Assembly (NCBI GenBank): GCA_035268685.1
Contig: DATFKK010000171.1
Location: 1-32,874, forward strand
DNA length: 32,874 nt
Reading direction: 5' to 3'
DNA from: Candidatus Krumholzibacteriia bacterium
Lineage (GTDB): Bacteria > Krumholzibacteriota > Krumholzibacteriia > JAJRXK01
Shown here: positions 1,569 to 9,019 of the stretch, piece after piece
Layout of the letters: each line of letters starts with the position of its first letter
Numbering within the stretch: the stretch's first letter is position 1
Position numbers and translations under genes: made by a program
Notes under the pieces: model-generated
What the model was told of the DNA's origin: nothing
Databases searched by the model: none
What the model saw: the letters and a program-made list of their open reading frames with translations, nothing else

Positions 1569-1597
1569 TTGACAATCCGCCGCGCCGGGGCTTCACT
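1569..1597 (+). promoter_or_regulatory. Predicted sigma-70-type promoter of the his operon
   Basis: A perfect TTGACA (1569-1574) is followed after 17 bases by TTCACT (1592-1597), which matches the -10 consensus at three of six positions. Transcription would start near 1604, about 46 bases before the leader-peptide ATG at 1650. The region between the MDR gene (start 1488) and hisG (1876) holds no other gene. A perfect -35 hexamer in this GC-rich background is notable, but the -10 is weak and the call is a prediction. Confidence 0.5.
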
Positions 1598-1649
1598 GAT
1601 CCGGTCGCCGGACCCCCGTCCGGCCCCGAATCCCCGAGCGGAGCGATCG

Positions 1650-1715
1650 ATGTTCCCGCGGCACCATCACGGCCATCATCACCATCACGGCACCCGGGAG
1701 GGGTCCGTCGCGTAG
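1650..1715 (+). CDS. hisL: his operon leader peptide (21 codons, eight His)
   Basis: An ATG at 1650, preceded by GGAG at 1640-1643 with 6-base spacing, opens a 21-codon frame that begins MFPRHHHGHHHHHG and ends at TAG 1713-1715. Eight of nine consecutive codons (1662-1688) are histidine: three, then one Gly, then five. It sits between a predicted promoter and hisG, 161 bases upstream of the hisG start. This is the arrangement of the enterobacterial HisL peptide, which senses charged tRNA-His by ribosome stalling. No function beyond translation itself is implied. The call rests on the His run, the ribosome site, the position and the alternative folds described for 1693-1792. It is not similar in sequence to E. 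coli HisL outside the His run. Confidence 0.88.
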   Translation: MFPRHHHGHHHHHGTREGSVA

Positions 1716-1792
1716 GTGTTGGTCCGCCGCCGTCGAGCGCACCGAAACCGAACACGCCGGCCCCTTCCCGGGCCGGCGTTCGTGCTTCGGTG
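1693..1792 (+). promoter_or_regulatory. his attenuator: mutually exclusive hairpins between leader peptide and hisG
   Basis: Fold 1 (terminator-like) is a long hairpin at 1740-1792: 1740-1746 with 1786-1792, 1749-1753 with 1778-1782, and 1756-1763 with 1770-1777, closing a 6-base loop. Fold 2 (antiterminator-like) is two nested helices: 1693-1703 with 1761-1772 (11 pairs, T1765 bulged) and 1716-1723 with 1747-1755 (8 pairs, G1750 bulged). Fold 2 uses both arms of fold 1, so they cannot coexist. A ribosome at the leader stop codon (1713-1715) would cover 1700-1703 and 1716-1723 and favour fold 1. One stalled on the His codons would leave them free and favour fold 2. No clear T-run follows 1792, so termination may need Rho or another factor. 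A further small hairpin (1840-1845 with 1854-1859) lies 6 bases before the hisG ribosome site. Confidence 0.72.
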
Positions 1793-1875
1793 ACCCGTGT
1801 CGCCCGCCCGAGCGCCCCCGACGAAGTTCCGGCTCACCCCGGCGGCCCGAACGCCGCCGAACCCTGGAGGGAACC

Positions 1876-2736
1876 GTGGAGGCGACCATCCGCCTGGGCC
1901 TGCCCAAGGGCCGCATGCAGGACAACGTGCTGAAGCTCCTGGCCGACGCCGGCATCCGGGTCGGACTCGAGACCCGGGGCTACCGCGCCACCGTCAGTCT
2001 GCCCGGCTTCGAGGCCAAGATGCTCAAGCCGCAGAACATCGTGGAGATGTTGCACGCCGGTTCGCGCGACGTCGGCTTCGCGGGCAAGGACTGGGTGATC
2101 GAGAAGCGCCTCGACCTGATCGAGCTGCTCGACACGGGCCTCGATCCGGTGCGTATCGTGGCCGCCGCTCCCACCACCATGCTCGTCGACGGCGTCCTGC
2201 CGCGGCAGCACCTCGTGGTCGCCAGCGAGTACACCGGCCTGACCCAGGACTGGATCGCGCGCGCCGAACTCGACGCCAGCTTCGTCCGCAGCTACGGCGC
2301 CACCGAGGTCTTCCCGCCCGAGGACGCCGACGTGATCGTCGACAACACCGCGACGGGGTCGACCCTGCGGGCCAACGGCCTGGCCATCGTCGACGAGATC
2401 ATGACCTCGTCCACGCGGATGTACGCGCACCCGAAGGTCATGGACGACCCCTCGCGGCGGGCCATGGTCGAGGACCTCGTCCTGCTGCTGACCTCGGTGA
2501 TCGAGGCGCGCCAGCGTGTGATGATCGAACTGAACGTGAGCAACGACGACTTCGACGCCGTGATCGACGTGCTGCCGTGCATGCGCGAGCCCACGGTGTC
2601 GCGCCTGCATCACGAGGCGGGCTTCGCCGTGAAGGCGGCCGTGCCCCGCAAGGGACTGGCCGAGCTGATCCCCGTGATCAAGGCGCGCGGAGGGACCGAC
2701 ATCGTGGTCAGCGGTCTCGCGCAGATCGTTCCCTGA
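1876..2736 (+). CDS. hisG: ATP phosphoribosyltransferase, long form
   Basis: Catalyses the first step of histidine synthesis, joining ATP and PRPP to make phosphoribosyl-ATP. The 286-residue protein starts MEATIRLGLPKGRMQD, the usual HisG N-terminus, and carries GSRDVGFAGKDW and the PRPP-binding region DVIVDNTATGSTLRANGL. About 70 C-terminal residues, from MIELNVSNDDFDAVIDVLP to the end, form the ACT-like regulatory domain of long HisG. It should therefore be hexameric and feedback-inhibited by histidine, needing no HisZ, and none is present. The start is GTG at 1876 behind GGAGG (1866-1870). It is the first enzyme gene after the His leader and is followed 9 bases later by hisC. Confidence 0.96.
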   Translation: MEATIRLGLPKGRMQDNVLKLLADAGIRVGLETRGYRATVSLPGFEAKMLKPQNIVEMLHAGSRDVGFAGKDWVIEKRLDLIELLDTGLDPVRIVAAAPTTMLVDGVLPRQHLVVASEYTGLTQDWIARAELDASFVRSYGATEVFPPEDADVIVDNTATGSTLRANGLAIVDEIMTSSTRMYAHPKVMDDPSRRAMVEDLVLLLTSVIEARQRVMIELNVSNDDFDAVIDVLPCMREPTVSRLHHEAGFAVKAAVPRKGLAELIPVIKARGGTDIVVSGLAQIVP

Positions 2737-2745
2737 GGTGTGACG

Positions 2746-4464
2746 ATGGACCGAGCGACCTCTCAGACCCACGTCGACGTGAGCCGGCCCTACGTGCGGC
2801 CGACCATCCCGGCCCACGTCGACCTCCGTCTGGACGCGAACGAGGGCCCGCCACCGGCGCGCGCGATCCTCGATGCGGTGCGCGGCGCCGGCGGCGACGT
2901 CCTGCGCCGCTACCCCGACGGGGCGGACACGGAACGGGCCTTCGCCGCGTACTTCGGCGTCGAGCCCGAATCCCTGCTCATGACCGCGGGCGCCGACGAC
3001 GCGATCGACCGCCTGTGCCGGGTGGCGCTGTCGGGCGGCGGAACGCTGGTCCTGCCCTCGCCGAGCTTCGAGATGTTCGAGCGCTACGCCACGCTCGCCG
3101 GGGGCCGCGTGGTCCGGGTGCCGTGGCCCGAGGGAGCCTGGCCGGTCGATGCGGTGCTCGACACCATCGACGGCGGCACGCGCATGGTGGCCATGGTGAG
3201 TCCGAACAATCCGACCGGGGCCGTGGCGAGCTTCGACGCACTCGAGCGCGTGGCGACCGCGCACCCCGACGTGCTCGTGGTCCTCGACCACGCCTACGCC
3301 GAGTTCGCCGACGAGGACCTCACCCGGCGCGCGCTGGAACTGCCAAACGTGGTCGTGCTGCGCACCATGTCCAAGGCCTGGAGCCTGGCCGGCCTGCGCG
3401 TGGGCTTCGCCCTGGGCGCGGCCGAACGCATCGCGCCCCTGCGCGCGGCGGGACCGCCCTACGCCGTGTCGCAGATCGCCGTCGAGGTCGCGCGCGCGGC
3501 CCTGGAGAACGCCCGCGGGGCCATGGAGTCGACCGTCGCGTCCGTGCGCGACGAACGCGAGGCCCTCACCCGGCGCGCTGACGAACTCGGCCTGCGCCCA
3601 CTGCCCTCGCAGGCCAACTTCGTGCTGGCCGGCGCCGACGACCCGGCCCGCGTGGACCGCGGCCTGCAGTGCATGGGGATCAAGATCCGCACCTGGCCCG
3701 GCCACCCCGAACTCGACGGCTACGTGCGCCTGGGGTGTCCGGCCGATCGACGCGCCTTCGCCCGCTTCGACCGCGCCCTCGGTTCGCTGCTGCGCCCCGG
3801 GGCCCTGCTGCTCGACATGGACGGCGTGATCGCCGACGAGGGCGAGAGCTACCGCGAGGCCATCCGCGCCACGCTCGCCGAGTTCGACGTCGAGATGGAC
3901 CGCGAGCGCATCGCGCAGATGAAGGCCGCCGGAAACGCGAACAACGACTGGCGCGTGACCCAGCGCCTGCTGACCGAGGCCGGCATCGCGGTCGACTACG
4001 ACGAGGTCGTCGCGCGCTTCGAGCGCCACTACCAGGGCACCGACGGCCAGCCGGGCTTGCACGAGAAGGAGACCCTGCTCGTCGAACGAAACGTTCTCGA
4101 GGCGCTGCGCGCGCGCATGCCGCTGGCCATCGTCACCGGACGTCCGCGGCGCGACGCGATCCGCTTCCTCGAACGCTTCGAGCTGCTCGATCTCTTCGAC
4201 GCCGTGGTCACCGTCGACGACGTCGCCCGCGGCAAGCCCGATCCCGAACCCGTCGAACTCGCCCTGTCGCAGCTGGGCGTGCGGACGGCCTGGATGGTCG
4301 GCGACACGCCCGACGACCTGGTCGCCGCGCGCGCGGCCTCGGTGCTGCCGATCGGCATCGGCGCGCCGAGCCGCCGCGACGCCGTGTCGCTCGCGTCGCT
4401 CGACGACGCCGGCGCCTTCACCGTTCTCGATCGCCTGGCCGATCTGCAGGAGATGCTGCCATGA
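2746..4464 (+). CDS. hisC: Histidinol-phosphate aminotransferase fused to HAD phosphatase
   Basis: 572-residue fusion. Residues 1 to about 345 are a PLP fold-type I HisC: LDANEGPP near the N-terminus, VSPNNPTGA, and the PLP lysine K210 in TMSKAWSLAGLRVG. From about residue 350 a subfamily IA HAD phosphatase follows: nucleophile pair D357/D359 in LLLDMDGVIAD, the threonine loop IVTGRPRRDA, K497 in GKPDPEP, and acidic residues D520/D523/D524 in VGDTPDD. All four HAD motifs are intact. No separate histidinol-phosphate phosphatase is present, and HisB here has only its dehydratase domain. I infer that the HAD part dephosphorylates histidinol phosphate, the product of the step after HisC. I prefer the ATG at 2746 (GAGGTG 5 bases upstream) over a GTG at 2740. 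The stop overlaps hisB by 4 bases. Confidence 0.92.
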   Translation: MDRATSQTHVDVSRPYVRPTIPAHVDLRLDANEGPPPARAILDAVRGAGGDVLRRYPDGADTERAFAAYFGVEPESLLMTAGADDAIDRLCRVALSGGGTLVLPSPSFEMFERYATLAGGRVVRVPWPEGAWPVDAVLDTIDGGTRMVAMVSPNNPTGAVASFDALERVATAHPDVLVVLDHAYAEFADEDLTRRALELPNVVVLRTMSKAWSLAGLRVGFALGAAERIAPLRAAGPPYAVSQIAVEVARAALENARGAMESTVASVRDEREALTRRADELGLRPLPSQANFVLAGADDPARVDRGLQCMGIKIRTWPGHPELDGYVRLGCPADRRAFARFDRALGSLLRPGALLLDMDGVIADEGESYREAIRATLAEFDVEMDRERIAQMKAAGNANNDWRVTQRLLTEAGIAVDYDEVVARFERHYQGTDGQPGLHEKETLLVERNVLEALRARMPLAIVTGRPRRDAIRFLERFELLDLFDAVVTVDDVARGKPDPEPVELALSQLGVRTAWMVGDTPDDLVAARAASVLPIGIGAPSRRDAVSLASLDDAGAFTVLDRLADLQEMLP

Positions 4465-5048
4465 GCCAACGGACCGTGACCGTGCAACGCGAGACCGCGG
4501 AGACGCGGATCGACCTCACGCTCGACCTCGACGGCGTGGGCCGGGCCGACGTCGACACCGGTCTGGGCTTCCTCGACCACATGATCCACGCCCTGGTCAA
4601 GCACGCGCACTTCGACCTGTCGCTGGCCTGCGAGGGCGACCTCGAGATCGACGACCACCACACCGCCGAGGACTGCGCCCTGGCCCTGGGCGAGGCGATC
4701 GAGCGCGCACTGGGCGACAAGCGCGGCATCGGGCGCTTCGGCCACGCCTACGCTCCCCTCGACGAAGCACTCGCACGGTCTGTGGTCGACCTCAGCGGCC
4801 GCCCGCACGCCAGCGTGGACATCGGCTTCACGCGCGAGGGCCTGGGCGACGTCGCCACCGAGAACCTCACGCACTTCCTCGAGTCGCTCGCGATCCGCGG
4901 TCGCTTCACCCTGCACGTGGACGTGCTGAAGGGCCGCAACGACCACCACCGCATCGAGGCCGCGTTCAAGGCCACGGCGCTGGCCCTGCGGCAGGCCGTG
5001 CGCGTGGACGGCACCGAGGTGCCCAGTACCAAGGAAGTCCTCGCGTGA
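4461..5048 (+). CDS. hisB: Imidazoleglycerol-phosphate dehydratase (monofunctional)
   Basis: Converts imidazoleglycerol phosphate to imidazoleacetol phosphate, the HisC substrate. The 195-residue protein has the two manganese-binding duplicated motifs: DDHHTAEDCALALGEA (H66/H67) and NDHHRIEAAFKATALALRQA near the C-terminus. It also has the GLGFLDHMIHALVKH segment typical of the family. It lacks the N-terminal HAD domain of the E. coli bifunctional HisB; the HAD domain in this operon is instead on HisC. Its ATG overlaps the hisC-HAD stop (ATGA), and its stop overlaps the hisH start, so translation is probably coupled. Full length, no anomalies. Confidence 0.96.
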   Translation: MSQRTVTVQRETAETRIDLTLDLDGVGRADVDTGLGFLDHMIHALVKHAHFDLSLACEGDLEIDDHHTAEDCALALGEAIERALGDKRGIGRFGHAYAPLDEALARSVVDLSGRPHASVDIGFTREGLGDVATENLTHFLESLAIRGRFTLHVDVLKGRNDHHRIEAAFKATALALRQAVRVDGTEVPSTKEVLA

Positions 5049-5668
5049 AGATCGCCGTGATCGACACCGGCAGCGCGAACACGCGCTCGGTCGACGCCGC
5101 GCTGCGCCGCATCGACCTCGACCCGGTGCCGGTGACCGAGCCCGACGACGTGCTCGCCGCCGACCGCGTGCTGCTGCCCGGCGTGGGCGCCTTCGAGGCC
5201 GCCATGCGTCAGCTGCGGGAACAGTCGCTGGTGGAGCCGCTGCGCGAGCGTCTCCGCGCCGGCTGGCCCACGCTGGCCGTGTGCATCGGCCTGCAGCTGC
5301 TGTGCACGAAGAGCGAAGAAGGCGAGGGAACCGAAGGTCTGGGCGCCCTGCCGACCGTGGTCGGCCGCTTCTCGGGCGACGTCCGCGTCCCCCACATGGG
5401 CTGGAACCGGGTCCACGCACCGACCGGCGCCGACTGGATCGAGGACGGACACGCCTACTTCGCCAACAGTTACCGCGTCGACGGCGACGCGATCGAAGCA
5501 CTGAACGGAGAAGGCTGGAGCGTGGCCACCTGCGACTACGACGGATCCTTCGTCGCCGCCGCCGCGCGCGACGGGATCCTGGCGTGCCAGTTCCACCCCG
5601 AACTCAGCGGCACGTGGGGACTCGACCTGCTGCGCAGCTGGATCGTCCGCACCCGGGAGGCGCTCTGA
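5045..5668 (+). CDS. hisH: Imidazole glycerol phosphate synthase, glutaminase subunit
   Basis: Class I glutamine amidotransferase subunit that supplies ammonia to HisF through the synthase tunnel. The 207-residue protein has the LPGVGAFEAAM oxyanion-strand region, the nucleophile C80 in AVCIGLQLL, and the catalytic His/Glu in CQFHPELSG near the C-terminus. PHMGWNRV, conserved in HisH, is present. The start is a GTG at 5045 overlapping the hisB stop (GTGA). hisF begins at the base after its stop. The N-terminus (MKIAVIDTGSANTRSV) is slightly unusual, with DTGSAN where DYGxGN is common, but all catalytic residues are in place. Confidence 0.95.
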   Translation: MKIAVIDTGSANTRSVDAALRRIDLDPVPVTEPDDVLAADRVLLPGVGAFEAAMRQLREQSLVEPLRERLRAGWPTLAVCIGLQLLCTKSEEGEGTEGLGALPTVVGRFSGDVRVPHMGWNRVHAPTGADWIEDGHAYFANSYRVDGDAIEALNGEGWSVATCDYDGSFVAAAARDGILACQFHPELSGTWGLDLLRSWIVRTREAL

Positions 5669-6424
5669 ATGCTGACCCTGCGCATCATCCCCTGCCTGGA
5701 CGTCCGCGACGGCCGCGTGGTGAAGGGTGTGAAGTTCCAGAACCTGCGCGACGCCGGCGACCCGGCCGAGCAGGCGGTGGCGTACGAAGAGCAGACCGCC
5801 GACGAGATCTGCATCCTCGACGTGAGCGCCACGGTCGAGGGCCGCGCCAACCAGAACCCGACCATCCGCGACGTGCGCCGGGGGATCAGCATTCCGATCA
5901 CCGCCGGCGGCGGCGTGCGCGAGGTCGACGACGCCCGCCAGTTGCTGCGCAGCGGCGCCGACAAAGTGAGCGTGAACAGCGCGGCGGTGGCGCGCCCCGA
6001 GCTGTTGGGCGACCTGGCCGACCGCTTCGGGGTGCAGTGCGTGGTGCTCGCCATCGACGCCAGCCGCGAGAACGACGGCCGCTGGGTCGTGCGCACGCAC
6101 TCGGGCACGAGCAAGGCCCCGCTCGACGCGGTGGAGTGGGCGGCGCAGGGCGAGGCGATGGGCGCCGGCGAGATCCTGCTCACCAGCTGGGACCGCGACG
6201 GCACGCGCGAGGGCTACGACCTCGACCTGCTGCGCGCCGTGCGCAGCGCGGTCAACGTCCCGGTGATCGCATCGGGCGGTGCCGACAGTGCGAAGCACAT
6301 GGCCGAGGCCGTCACCGCCGGCGCCGACGCCGTGCTGGCCGCGTCGATCTTCCACGACGGCGACACCACCGTGGCCTCGATCAAGGAAGAGCTCGCCGGC
6401 CTGGGAGTGGAGGTCCGCCGATGA
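5669..6424 (+). CDS. hisF: Imidazole glycerol phosphate synthase, cyclase subunit
   Basis: A beta/alpha-barrel cyclase that uses HisH-derived ammonia to form imidazoleglycerol phosphate and AICAR. The 251-residue protein starts MLTLRIIPCLDVRDGRVVKG with the catalytic D11. The second catalytic aspartate D130 is in VLAIDAS. The phosphate-binding loops are ITAGGGVRE in the first half and IASGGADSAKHM in the second, reflecting the internal barrel duplication. The ATG at 5669 directly follows the hisH TGA, with GGGAGG at 5655-5660 as ribosome site inside hisH. The stop overlaps the next start by ATGA. Canonical length. Confidence 0.97.
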   Translation: MLTLRIIPCLDVRDGRVVKGVKFQNLRDAGDPAEQAVAYEEQTADEICILDVSATVEGRANQNPTIRDVRRGISIPITAGGGVREVDDARQLLRSGADKVSVNSAAVARPELLGDLADRFGVQCVVLAIDASRENDGRWVVRTHSGTSKAPLDAVEWAAQGEAMGAGEILLTSWDRDGTREGYDLDLLRAVRSAVNVPVIASGGADSAKHMAEAVTAGADAVLAASIFHDGDTTVASIKEELAGLGVEVRR

Positions 6425-7728
6425 TCGTCCCGTCGATCGACCTGCAGAACGGACACGCCGTCCAGCTGGTGGGCGGCAAGGAGAAGAAGCTCGACGCCGG
6501 CGACCCGGCGCCGCTGGCCCGCCGCTTCGGTGCGGTCGGCGAGATCGCGGTGATCGATCTCGACGCGGCCATGGGCAAGGGCTCCAACGCCGCCACCATC
6601 GAGCCCCTGCTGCGCACCACCCGCTGCCGCGTGGGCGGGGGCATCCGCGACGTCGACACGGCCCTGCACTGGCTCGACCGAGGAGCCCGGCAGGTGATCC
6701 TGGGCACGGCCGCCCGTCCCGAGATCCTGCGCGAGCTGCCACGCGAACGCACCTGCGCCGCCCTCGACGCCGTCCACGGCGACGTGGTCGTCGAGGGCTG
6801 GACGAAGAGCACCGGCACCGGCGTGGTCGAGCGCATGGAAGAGTTGCGCGACCACGTGGGGCACTTCCTCGTGACCTTCGTCGAACGCGAGGGCCGCATG
6901 GAAGGGCTCGACCTCGACTTCGCCCGCCGTCTGCGCGACGCCGCCGGCGACTGCCACCTGACCGTGGCCGGCGGCGTGGCCCGCCTCGACGAGATCGCCG
7001 AACTCGACGCCCTGGGCATCGACGTGCAGATCGGCATGGCCCTGTACACCGGGGCGATCCCGCTGGCCGACGGTTTCCTCGCACCCCTGCTGGCCAAGGA
7101 CCCCGAGGGCCCGTGGCCCACCGTGGTCTGCGACGAGAGCGGCGTCGCGCTCGGCCTGGTCCACAGCGACCTCGAGAGCGTGCGCCACGCACTGGACACC
7201 CTGACCGGCACCTACCACTCACGCCGCCGCGGTCTGTGGGAAAAGGGCAAGACCAGCGGCAACGTGCAGGAGCTGCTGCGCATCGACCTCGACTGCGACC
7301 GCGACGCGCTGCGCTTCACCGTGCGGCAGAGCGGCGTCGGCTTCTGCCACCGCGAGACCCGCACCTGCTGGGGCGAGGACCACGGCGTACCCCGCCTGGG
7401 ACGCCGGCTGAGGGCCCGGCTGGAGAACGCCCCCACCGGCAGCTACACGCGTCGCCTGTTCGACGACCCCGACCTGTTGGCGGCCAAACTCGAGGAAGAG
7501 GCCCGCGAGCTGGCCGAGGCCCGCGACCGCGACCACGTGATCGCCGAAGCCGCCGACCTGACCTATTTCACCCACGTGGCGCTCGCGCGCGCCGGGGCCG
7601 ACCACGCCGACGTCGGCCGCGCGCTCGACCGCCGCGAGTGGGCGGTGAAGCGCCGCAAGGGTGACGCGAAACCGGGCGCGATGGACGCCCTCCGCGAACG
7701 CCGCGAATCCGACTCCACGGGAGAGTGA
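6421..7728 (+). CDS. hisA: HisA-HisI-HisE trifunctional fusion
   Basis: One 435-residue frame carries three enzymes. Residues 1-225 are ProFAR isomerase (HisA barrel): D7 in VPSIDLQNG, VGGGIRD (71-77), D116 in ALDAV, and TVAGGVAR. Residues 232-318 are phosphoribosyl-AMP cyclohydrolase (HisI): the metal aspartates D291/D293/D295 in DLDCDRDAL and the zinc cysteines C292, C309, C316. Residues 325-410 are phosphoribosyl-ATP pyrophosphohydrolase (HisE), with the LEEEARELAEA acidic helix. HisI-HisE fusions are common; adding HisA in front is not an arrangement I know as standard. The HisA acid residue in the usual RDG loop is Glu (E157 in VEREG), as I recall for yeast His6. Start ATG 6421 overlaps the hisF stop. 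The fusion covers steps 2-4 of the pathway. Confidence 0.93.
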   Translation: MIVPSIDLQNGHAVQLVGGKEKKLDAGDPAPLARRFGAVGEIAVIDLDAAMGKGSNAATIEPLLRTTRCRVGGGIRDVDTALHWLDRGARQVILGTAARPEILRELPRERTCAALDAVHGDVVVEGWTKSTGTGVVERMEELRDHVGHFLVTFVEREGRMEGLDLDFARRLRDAAGDCHLTVAGGVARLDEIAELDALGIDVQIGMALYTGAIPLADGFLAPLLAKDPEGPWPTVVCDESGVALGLVHSDLESVRHALDTLTGTYHSRRRGLWEKGKTSGNVQELLRIDLDCDRDALRFTVRQSGVGFCHRETRTCWGEDHGVPRLGRRLRARLENAPTGSYTRRLFDDPDLLAAKLEEEARELAEARDRDHVIAEAADLTYFTHVALARAGADHADVGRALDRREWAVKRRKGDAKPGAMDALRERRESDSTGE

Positions 7729-7732
7729 CACC

Positions 7733-9019
7733 ATGACCACCGCCAGCCACGTCCTCCGCCGCGTCGACGCCGCCGACCTCCGCCGCACGCCGCGCGATCC
7801 CGTGCCGGCCGAGATCCTGGAGCAGGCCCGTGAGATCGTGACCAAGGTCCGCGCCGGGGGCGAGGTCGTGCTGCGCCGCTACGCGACGCAGTTCGACGGC
7901 CTGGCCGAGGACGCACCCATGATCCACACCGCGGCCGAGTTGGAGTCGGCCTTCGACGCCCTCGACGACGAGGCGCAGGGCGTGCTGCGCCGCACCGCCG
8001 AGCGCATCGACGACTTCGCGCGCTGGCAGCGCGAGGCCCTGCGCGACGTCGAGGTCCACGCCCACGGCATGCGCATGGGCCACCGCGTGATCCCCGTGGC
8101 AACGGCCGGCTGTTACGCCCCCGGCGGTCGCTTCCCGCTGCCGTCGACGGTGATGATGACCGCCGTCACCGCGCGCGCGGCCGGCGTGCCGCACGTGCTG
8201 GTGTGCTCGCCGAACCCACAGCCGGTGACCCTGGCCGCCGCGCACGTCGCCGGGGCCGACGGCCTGCTGGCGATCGGCGGCGCCCACGCGATCGCGGCCA
8301 TGGCCTTCGGCACCGAGACCGTCCCCGCCTGCGACGTGATCGTCGGCCCGGGCAACGCCTGGGTCACCGCCGGCAAGCAGCTGGTGGCCGGACGCGTGCG
8401 GATCGACTCGCTGGCCGGTCCGAGCGAGCTGCTGGTGGTCGCCGACGCCTCGACCGATCCCGCCCGCGCCGCTGCCGACCTGCTCGGTCAGGCCGAGCAC
8501 GACGTCATGGCCGTCCCCGCGCTGATCGCCCTCGACGACGGCGTGATCGAGTCGATCGAGACCGAGATCGAGACGCAGCTCGCCGACCTGCCCACCGCCG
8601 AGATCGCCACGGCCGCCCTTGAGAACGGCTACGCCGTCCGCGCCACCGACGCGGACGATGCCCTGGAACTGTGCGACGTGATCGCCCCCGAGCACCTGCA
8701 GTGGATGGCCGCGGGAACGGAGACCGCCCTGGAACGCCTGAAGAACTACGGCGGACTCTTCCTGGGCGACGACGCCGCGGAGGTCCTGGGCGACTACGGG
8801 GCCGGCCCGAACCACGTGCTGCCCACCGGCGGCAGCGCCCGCGCCAAGGGCGGCCTGAACGTCTACGACTTCGTGAAGGTGAACACCTTCATGCAGGCCG
8901 ACGACGGGGCCGACGTCGACCGGGTGGCCGCGGACTCCGCTGCGCTCGCCCGCATGGAGGGACTGGCCGCCCACGAGCGGGCGGCCACGCTGCGGCGGCG
9001 CGGCCTCGGACGCGGCTAG
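7733..9019 (+). CDS. hisD: Histidinol dehydrogenase
   Basis: Zinc-dependent NAD enzyme that oxidises histidinol to histidine in two steps, closing the pathway. The 428-residue protein shows VPVATAGCYAPGG-type substrate-loop sequence (here ending YAPGGRFPLPS), VIVGPGNAWVTAGKQLV for NAD binding, LAGPSELLVVAD, the zinc-ligand stretch LLGQAEHDVMA, and the catalytic APEHLQ. The start ATG at 7733 lies 4 bases after the hisAIE stop, with GGGAGAG (7719-7725) 7 bases upstream. It is the last gene of the operon, converging on proC with a 15-base gap that shows no obvious terminator. Confidence 0.96.
   Translation: MTTASHVLRRVDAADLRRTPRDPVPAEILEQAREIVTKVRAGGEVVLRRYATQFDGLAEDAPMIHTAAELESAFDALDDEAQGVLRRTAERIDDFARWQREALRDVEVHAHGMRMGHRVIPVATAGCYAPGGRFPLPSTVMMTAVTARAAGVPHVLVCSPNPQPVTLAAAHVAGADGLLAIGGAHAIAAMAFGTETVPACDVIVGPGNAWVTAGKQLVAGRVRIDSLAGPSELLVVADASTDPARAAADLLGQAEHDVMAVPALIALDDGVIESIETEIETQLADLPTAEIATAALENGYAVRATDADDALELCDVIAPEHLQWMAAGTETALERLKNYGGLFLGDDAAEVLGDYGAGPNHVLPTGGSARAKGGLNVYDFVKVNTFMQADDGADVDRVAADSAALARMEGLAAHERAATLRRRGLGRG

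Follow-up and report, generated by a model that had tools for sequence, protein, structure and literature searches.

A probable ribosome-mediated attenuator of the histidine operon in Krumholzibacteriia, with His-rich leaders also found in other phyla

The window, i.e. the whole stretch of DNA analysed here, comprises 32,874 nucleotides from a Candidatus Krumholzibacteriia bacterium and carries a histidine biosynthesis operon close to its start, preceded by promoter-like boxes, a short His-rich open reading frame (ORF) and two alternative RNA folds. The features are listed below, with Shine-Dalgarno sites read from the sequence and genes assigned by their Pfam domains.

1569-1574, + strand: -35 box TTGACA, invariant in 4/4 his operons of the class
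1592-1597, + strand: weak -10 box TTCACT, 3/6 match, spacer 17 in the window
1640-1643, + strand: Shine-Dalgarno GGAG of the leader ORF
1650-1715, + strand: leader peptide ORF, translated as MFPRHHHGHHHHHGTREGSVA, with its stop codon at 1713
1693-1703, + strand: antiterminator 5' strand, partner 1762-1772, from the MFE fold of 1690-1775 and covariation across loci
1716-1723, + strand: 5' strand of the inner antiterminator helix, partner 1747-1755 with one bulge (GTGTTGGT against ACCGAACAC)
1740-1792, + strand: predicted terminator hairpin, core 1754-1763:1770-1779, outer stem 1740-1746:1786-1792
1762-1772, + strand: antiterminator 3' strand, overlapping the 5' arm, the loop and the start of the 3' arm of the terminator
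1779-1790, + strand: interrupted U-tract TTCGTGCTTCGG, 5 T in 12, T-rich in most relatives
1867-1872, + strand: Shine-Dalgarno GGAGGG of hisG
1876-2736, + strand: hisG, long form with HisG and HisG_C domains (PF01634, PF08029)
2740-4464, + strand: hisC fused to a HAD-type phosphatase domain (PF00155 and PF13419)
4461-5048, + strand: hisB, IGP dehydratase (PF00475)
5045-5668, + strand: hisH (PF00117)
5669-6424, + strand: hisF (PF00977)
6421-7728, + strand: hisA-hisI-hisE in a single ORF (PF00977, PF01502 and PF01503)
7661-9019 as listed, + strand: hisD (PF00815), true start probably at about 7733

The HAD domain fused to HisC is possibly a histidinol-phosphate phosphatase.

An earlier note on this DNA had claimed a TTGACA promoter, and the box is indeed present and kept in all four class operons; the -10 box of the window is poor, and those of the three class relatives are better (TATCAT, TATGAT and TACCAT, spacer 16). 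The 21-codon leader behind a GGAG site, which the note had described as holding eight His in nine consecutive codons, was confirmed, with the His codons at positions 5-7 and 9-13 of the ORF (within 1662-1688). To judge from its sequence, the ORF is what a His leader-peptide attenuator calls for, namely a short, apparently translatable frame with a run of regulatory codons ahead of the cognate biosynthetic operon.

Two mutually exclusive folds had also been claimed for the region behind the His run. The hairpin at 1740-1792 has a free energy of -36.6 kcal/mol (z -5.3), equalled by 0/200 shuffles, and the alternative fold, which combines 1693-1703:1762-1772 with inner helices, reaches -49.4 kcal/mol for 1690-1775 (z -3.3; 1/200 shuffles). 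The folds overlap and share strands, so that only one can form at a time, and the inner pairing of the MFE antiterminator differs slightly from the 1716-1723:1747-1755 helix. Since the full 281-nt leader has a stability within the usual range of shuffles (z -1.5), the evidence sits in the specific helices, and thermodynamic folding bore out these helices but not the leader as a whole. A simple terminator scan found the hairpin only in the minus-strand reading. Its core, ACGCCGGCC...GGCCGGCGT, is common to most relatives across phyla.

The consequences of ribosome position were calculated by blocking the RNA as a ribosome would, codon by codon, with the RNA 3' end at 1775. In this calculation, the antiterminator formed with a probability of 0.5-0.9 as long as the ribosome stood no further than about codon 11, was gone by about codons 12-13 and stayed near 0 beyond, and the computed switch at codons 11-13 thus coincides with the end of the His run. 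The folds and this calculation agree with the earlier proposal that a ribosome at the leader stop would mask the antiterminator 5' strands; mutually exclusive folds with an antiterminator strand under the stop-codon ribosome, as required of the attenuator class, are present. Once the RNA is full-length, the energies of the two folds differ little and the equilibrium usually favours the terminator, and therefore antitermination must depend on the order of folding during synthesis. Known attenuators are likewise decided by the order of synthesis.

Four his operons of the class have upstream DNA available (the window, G034, G046 and G066), and each of them combines the TTGACA box with a His leader and a hairpin. 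The leaders begin with MxFRxQHHHG... in three cases and with MFPRHHHG... in the window, and the hairpins are centred on CGCCGGCC. The HisG of the window is 61% identical to that of G046 and stands apart from other class members on the HisG tree (weak support), and the class his operons may therefore lack one recent common origin. A His-run pattern search over the phylum gave no further his leader, the other matches being long non-leader frames and a cation-efflux-type protein. HisG was found in 5/80 class genomes and HisD in 4/78, while both searches were positive in 13/14 control genomes, and most of the class thus appears to lack the his pathway. As many of the class genomes are >90% complete, this points to apparently widespread histidine auxotrophy in the class, the genus-mate of the window's own genome included.

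For a broader view, GTDB contigs were scanned, giving 80 long-form HisG loci, of which 79 upstream regions, the window and class genomes included, were tested for a His-rich leader, defined as a short ORF in which 5 or more of 9 codons are His. Such a leader was present in 28/79 regions, against 0.02 expected from dinucleotide shuffles, none on the antisense strand and 4/2846 control windows elsewhere in the same loci. A looser criterion adds L073, L084, L077 (whose HisG is the same as that of L079) and perhaps L031. The conserved His codons that the earlier note had expected in relatives are thus found. On the HisG tree, the distribution of the leader takes 13 changes compared with 23.8 for shuffled labels. 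Where flanking DNA sufficed, leader loci continue with hisG-hisC, usually in the full order hisG-hisC-(HAD)-hisB-H-F-A-IE-D; 51/79 regions have no leader by the criterion, many of them belonging to alphaproteobacterial operons without hisC, and alphaproteobacterial hisG-hisB operons of this kind carry no leader.

By the labels of the metagenome-assembled genomes (MAGs), where labels and binning are imperfect, the leader loci span about eight phyla: Krumholzibacteriota, Gemmatimonadota, Planctomycetota, Acidobacteriota, Actinomycetota, Myxococcota, Spirochaetota and Sumerlaeota. L077 and L079 agree fully in HisG and leader but bear two phylum labels (Coriobacteriia and Gemmatimonadetes) and come from seemingly related binning efforts, the double label being likely a binning error. 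The leader of L068 is similar to those of Acidimicrobiia.

Covariation was assessed in silico: at every locus, the sequence reaching from the first His codon up to the hairpin was paired with the 5' arm and loop of that hairpin. Permutation of swapped partners was preferred over pair counts, as hand-chosen registers bias such counts. Own partners paired on average 3.2 kcal/mol better than swapped ones (z -7.8; 0/20000 permutations), and a set of 18 representatives also gave 0/20000. The signal is located inside the leader ORF (z -6.8); controls taken from the interval that separates the stop codon from the hairpin (z +0.9), from far upstream (z -0.6) and from hisG (z -0.8 and -0.2) showed none, and those from immediately upstream and from reversed sequence a weak one (z -1.6 and -1.8). 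A control downstream of the hairpin was positive (z -5.1), reflecting a second segment complementary to the terminator arm that follows the hairpin in several loci. The pairing evidence from these sequences is accordingly strong, if not perfectly specific, and the covariation between antiterminator and terminator arm, whose absence the earlier note would have taken as a refutation, is present.

The second segment, whose complement is the 5' arm of the terminator, is found about 10-30 nt past the hairpin in L063, L064, L070, L069 and others, is clear in Gemmatimonadota and may form another alternative fold.

Drawing on the leader, the folds, their conservation and covariation and the thermodynamic geometry, we propose a model for transcription start, leader translation, termination and the response to histidine, in which the his operon is very probably controlled by ribosome-mediated transcription attenuation. 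Transcription would start near 1600, with a ribosome on the His-rich leader closely trailing the RNA polymerase. With scarce His-tRNA, the ribosome would stall in codons 5-11 and leave 1693-1703 (and 1716-1723) free. Pairing with 1762-1772 (and 1747-1755) would then follow as soon as these have been transcribed, about 20 nt ahead of completion of the terminator, and transcription would proceed into hisG-hisC-HAD-hisB-H-F-A-IE-D. With plentiful His-tRNA, the ribosome would reach the stop codon at 1713 and cover the antiterminator 5' strands, upon which 1740-1792 would fold and transcription would end, most likely at an intrinsic terminator with the weak, interrupted U-tract TTCGTGCTTCGG. Control of the operon by charged tRNA-His, as the earlier note had put forward, is the best reading of the His-run leaders in relatives and the covarying antiterminator.

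The note was correct that no T-run follows the hairpin: the tail is poor, lies partly inside the hairpin and is weak across the class, where tails read TCGTTGG or TTCGTGCTTCGG, with the intermediate TTTCTGCGTC in G046. Hairpin tails in most homologues from other phyla are T-rich, for example TTTTTTCTTTT, TTTTGCGTTT and TTTTCGTTTCTT. When 289 kb of the window's genome were sampled and T counted in the 9 bases after each of 218 strong hairpins, 0/218 had T>=6 (maximum 5), and the attenuator tail, with T=4, was among the top 15. Because most of the relatives' hairpins have T-rich tails and no T>=6 tail occurs among these 218 hairpins, the missing T-run probably reflects an eroded terminator, i.e. 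an intrinsic terminator, rich in GC, whose interrupted U-tract is normal for this genome, and this is more probable than the different terminating mechanism suggested before.

The same sensing of His codons could be coupled to Rho, ending transcription on the C-rich untranslated stretch behind the leader and not at the hairpin itself, which we consider rather unlikely. The absence of a real U-tract would suit Rho, as would the base composition behind the leaders, where C outnumbers G in all four of the window's 40-nt blocks (15-19 against 12-14) and the third block is C-rich in 4/4 class leaders (18-22 against 10-13), but Rho would not need the hairpin, which is kept across phyla together with its core sequence and T-rich tails, and poor U-tracts are general in the window's genome. 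Rho is a possible helper of, or alternative to, intrinsic termination.

Translational control, in which the folds would hide or expose the hisG ribosome-binding site, is a known variant of leader attenuators (PMC9413887) and would fit the absent T-run, but we hold it to be very improbable: the last base of the hairpin, 1792, lies 75 nt ahead of the Shine-Dalgarno at 1867, the fold of 1796-1880 is no more stable than those of shuffles (z +1.0) and T-rich tails directly follow the hairpin in most relatives. The masking of the hisG start offered by the earlier note as an alternative is unlikely for the same distance. That the His-rich ORF is a chance or metal-binding peptide next to an unrelated hairpin is scarcely credible, since, although the class also has His-rich stretches in cation-efflux-type proteins (L096), the leader is found in 28/79 regions against 0.02 expected, at a fixed position before hisG and with a covarying antiterminator.

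The preferred reading, attenuation at an intrinsic terminator, places the element beside enterobacterial hisL (RF00514), which likewise has a His-run leader before the his operon and in which, as proposed here, a stalled ribosome favours the antiterminator over the terminator. The leader and competing folds agree with the earlier claim of the same logic, though the window has no match to RF00514 His_leader at gathering score or E<=10, and ten relatives have none at gathering score. As far as the folds show, the switch of the window is simpler than in enterobacteria, with the GC-rich core ACGCCGGCC and an interrupted U-tract, and the operon order differs. At gathering score, no Rfam family matched in the window; the sub-threshold matches at E<=10 were Thr_leader (RF00506) and an sRNA. 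Thr_leader was rejected, with 19.9 bits against a cut-off of 55 and codons for His, not Thr/Ile, as was a T-box riboswitch, there being no Rfam T-box match in the window.

Leader-peptide attenuation has long been documented mainly in Proteobacteria and Actinobacteria (PMC2965389) and later in Firmicutes, where His leader attenuators occur in the B. cereus group, Peptostreptococcaceae and Erysipelotrichales (PMC9413887), and hisS/hisZ leaders are described in bacilli (PMC2965389). These Firmicutes leaders also join a His peptide to alternative hairpins outside Proteobacteria, but belong to another phylum and have 3-5 consecutive His codons, the likeness resting on their descriptions. Flavobacteriaceae offer leader-peptide clues at amino-acid operons, and their structured hisG 5' element (PMC9723704) is similarly conserved and not in Rfam, although it belongs to Bacteroidota and is likened to the window by description. 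The proposed mechanism is classical His attenuation in a lineage new to it as far as the papers found go, which describe leader-peptide attenuation for Proteobacteria, Actinobacteria and Firmicutes and give hints for Flavobacteria; precedence in other groups is less certain, given the 2010 survey of Lopatovskaya et al. (cited in PMC4833913). Tentatively, the leader, the ACGCCGGCC core and the order hisG-hisC-HAD-hisB-H-F-A-IE-D might form a single attenuator family outside Rfam that reached about eight phyla through descent or joint transfer and needs no real U-tract in Krumholzibacteriia. An alignment for a new Rfam family could start from the 28 leaders, and their natural U-tract variants bear on how much U-tract regulated terminators need in GC-rich bacteria.

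Codon usage in the leader differs from that of the genes: the window leader has 4 CAT and 4 CAC, compared with 1 CAT and 44 CAC in the his genes counted (1876-9019; p 0.001), and over the 28 loci CAT makes up 98/185 His codons in leaders versus 12/56 in hisG. A possible effect of this preference is a leader free of structure or a slower ribosome. Over the initial 840 bases of the matched stretch, the hisG genes of G034, G046 and G066 have zero His codons, and that of the window has 5.
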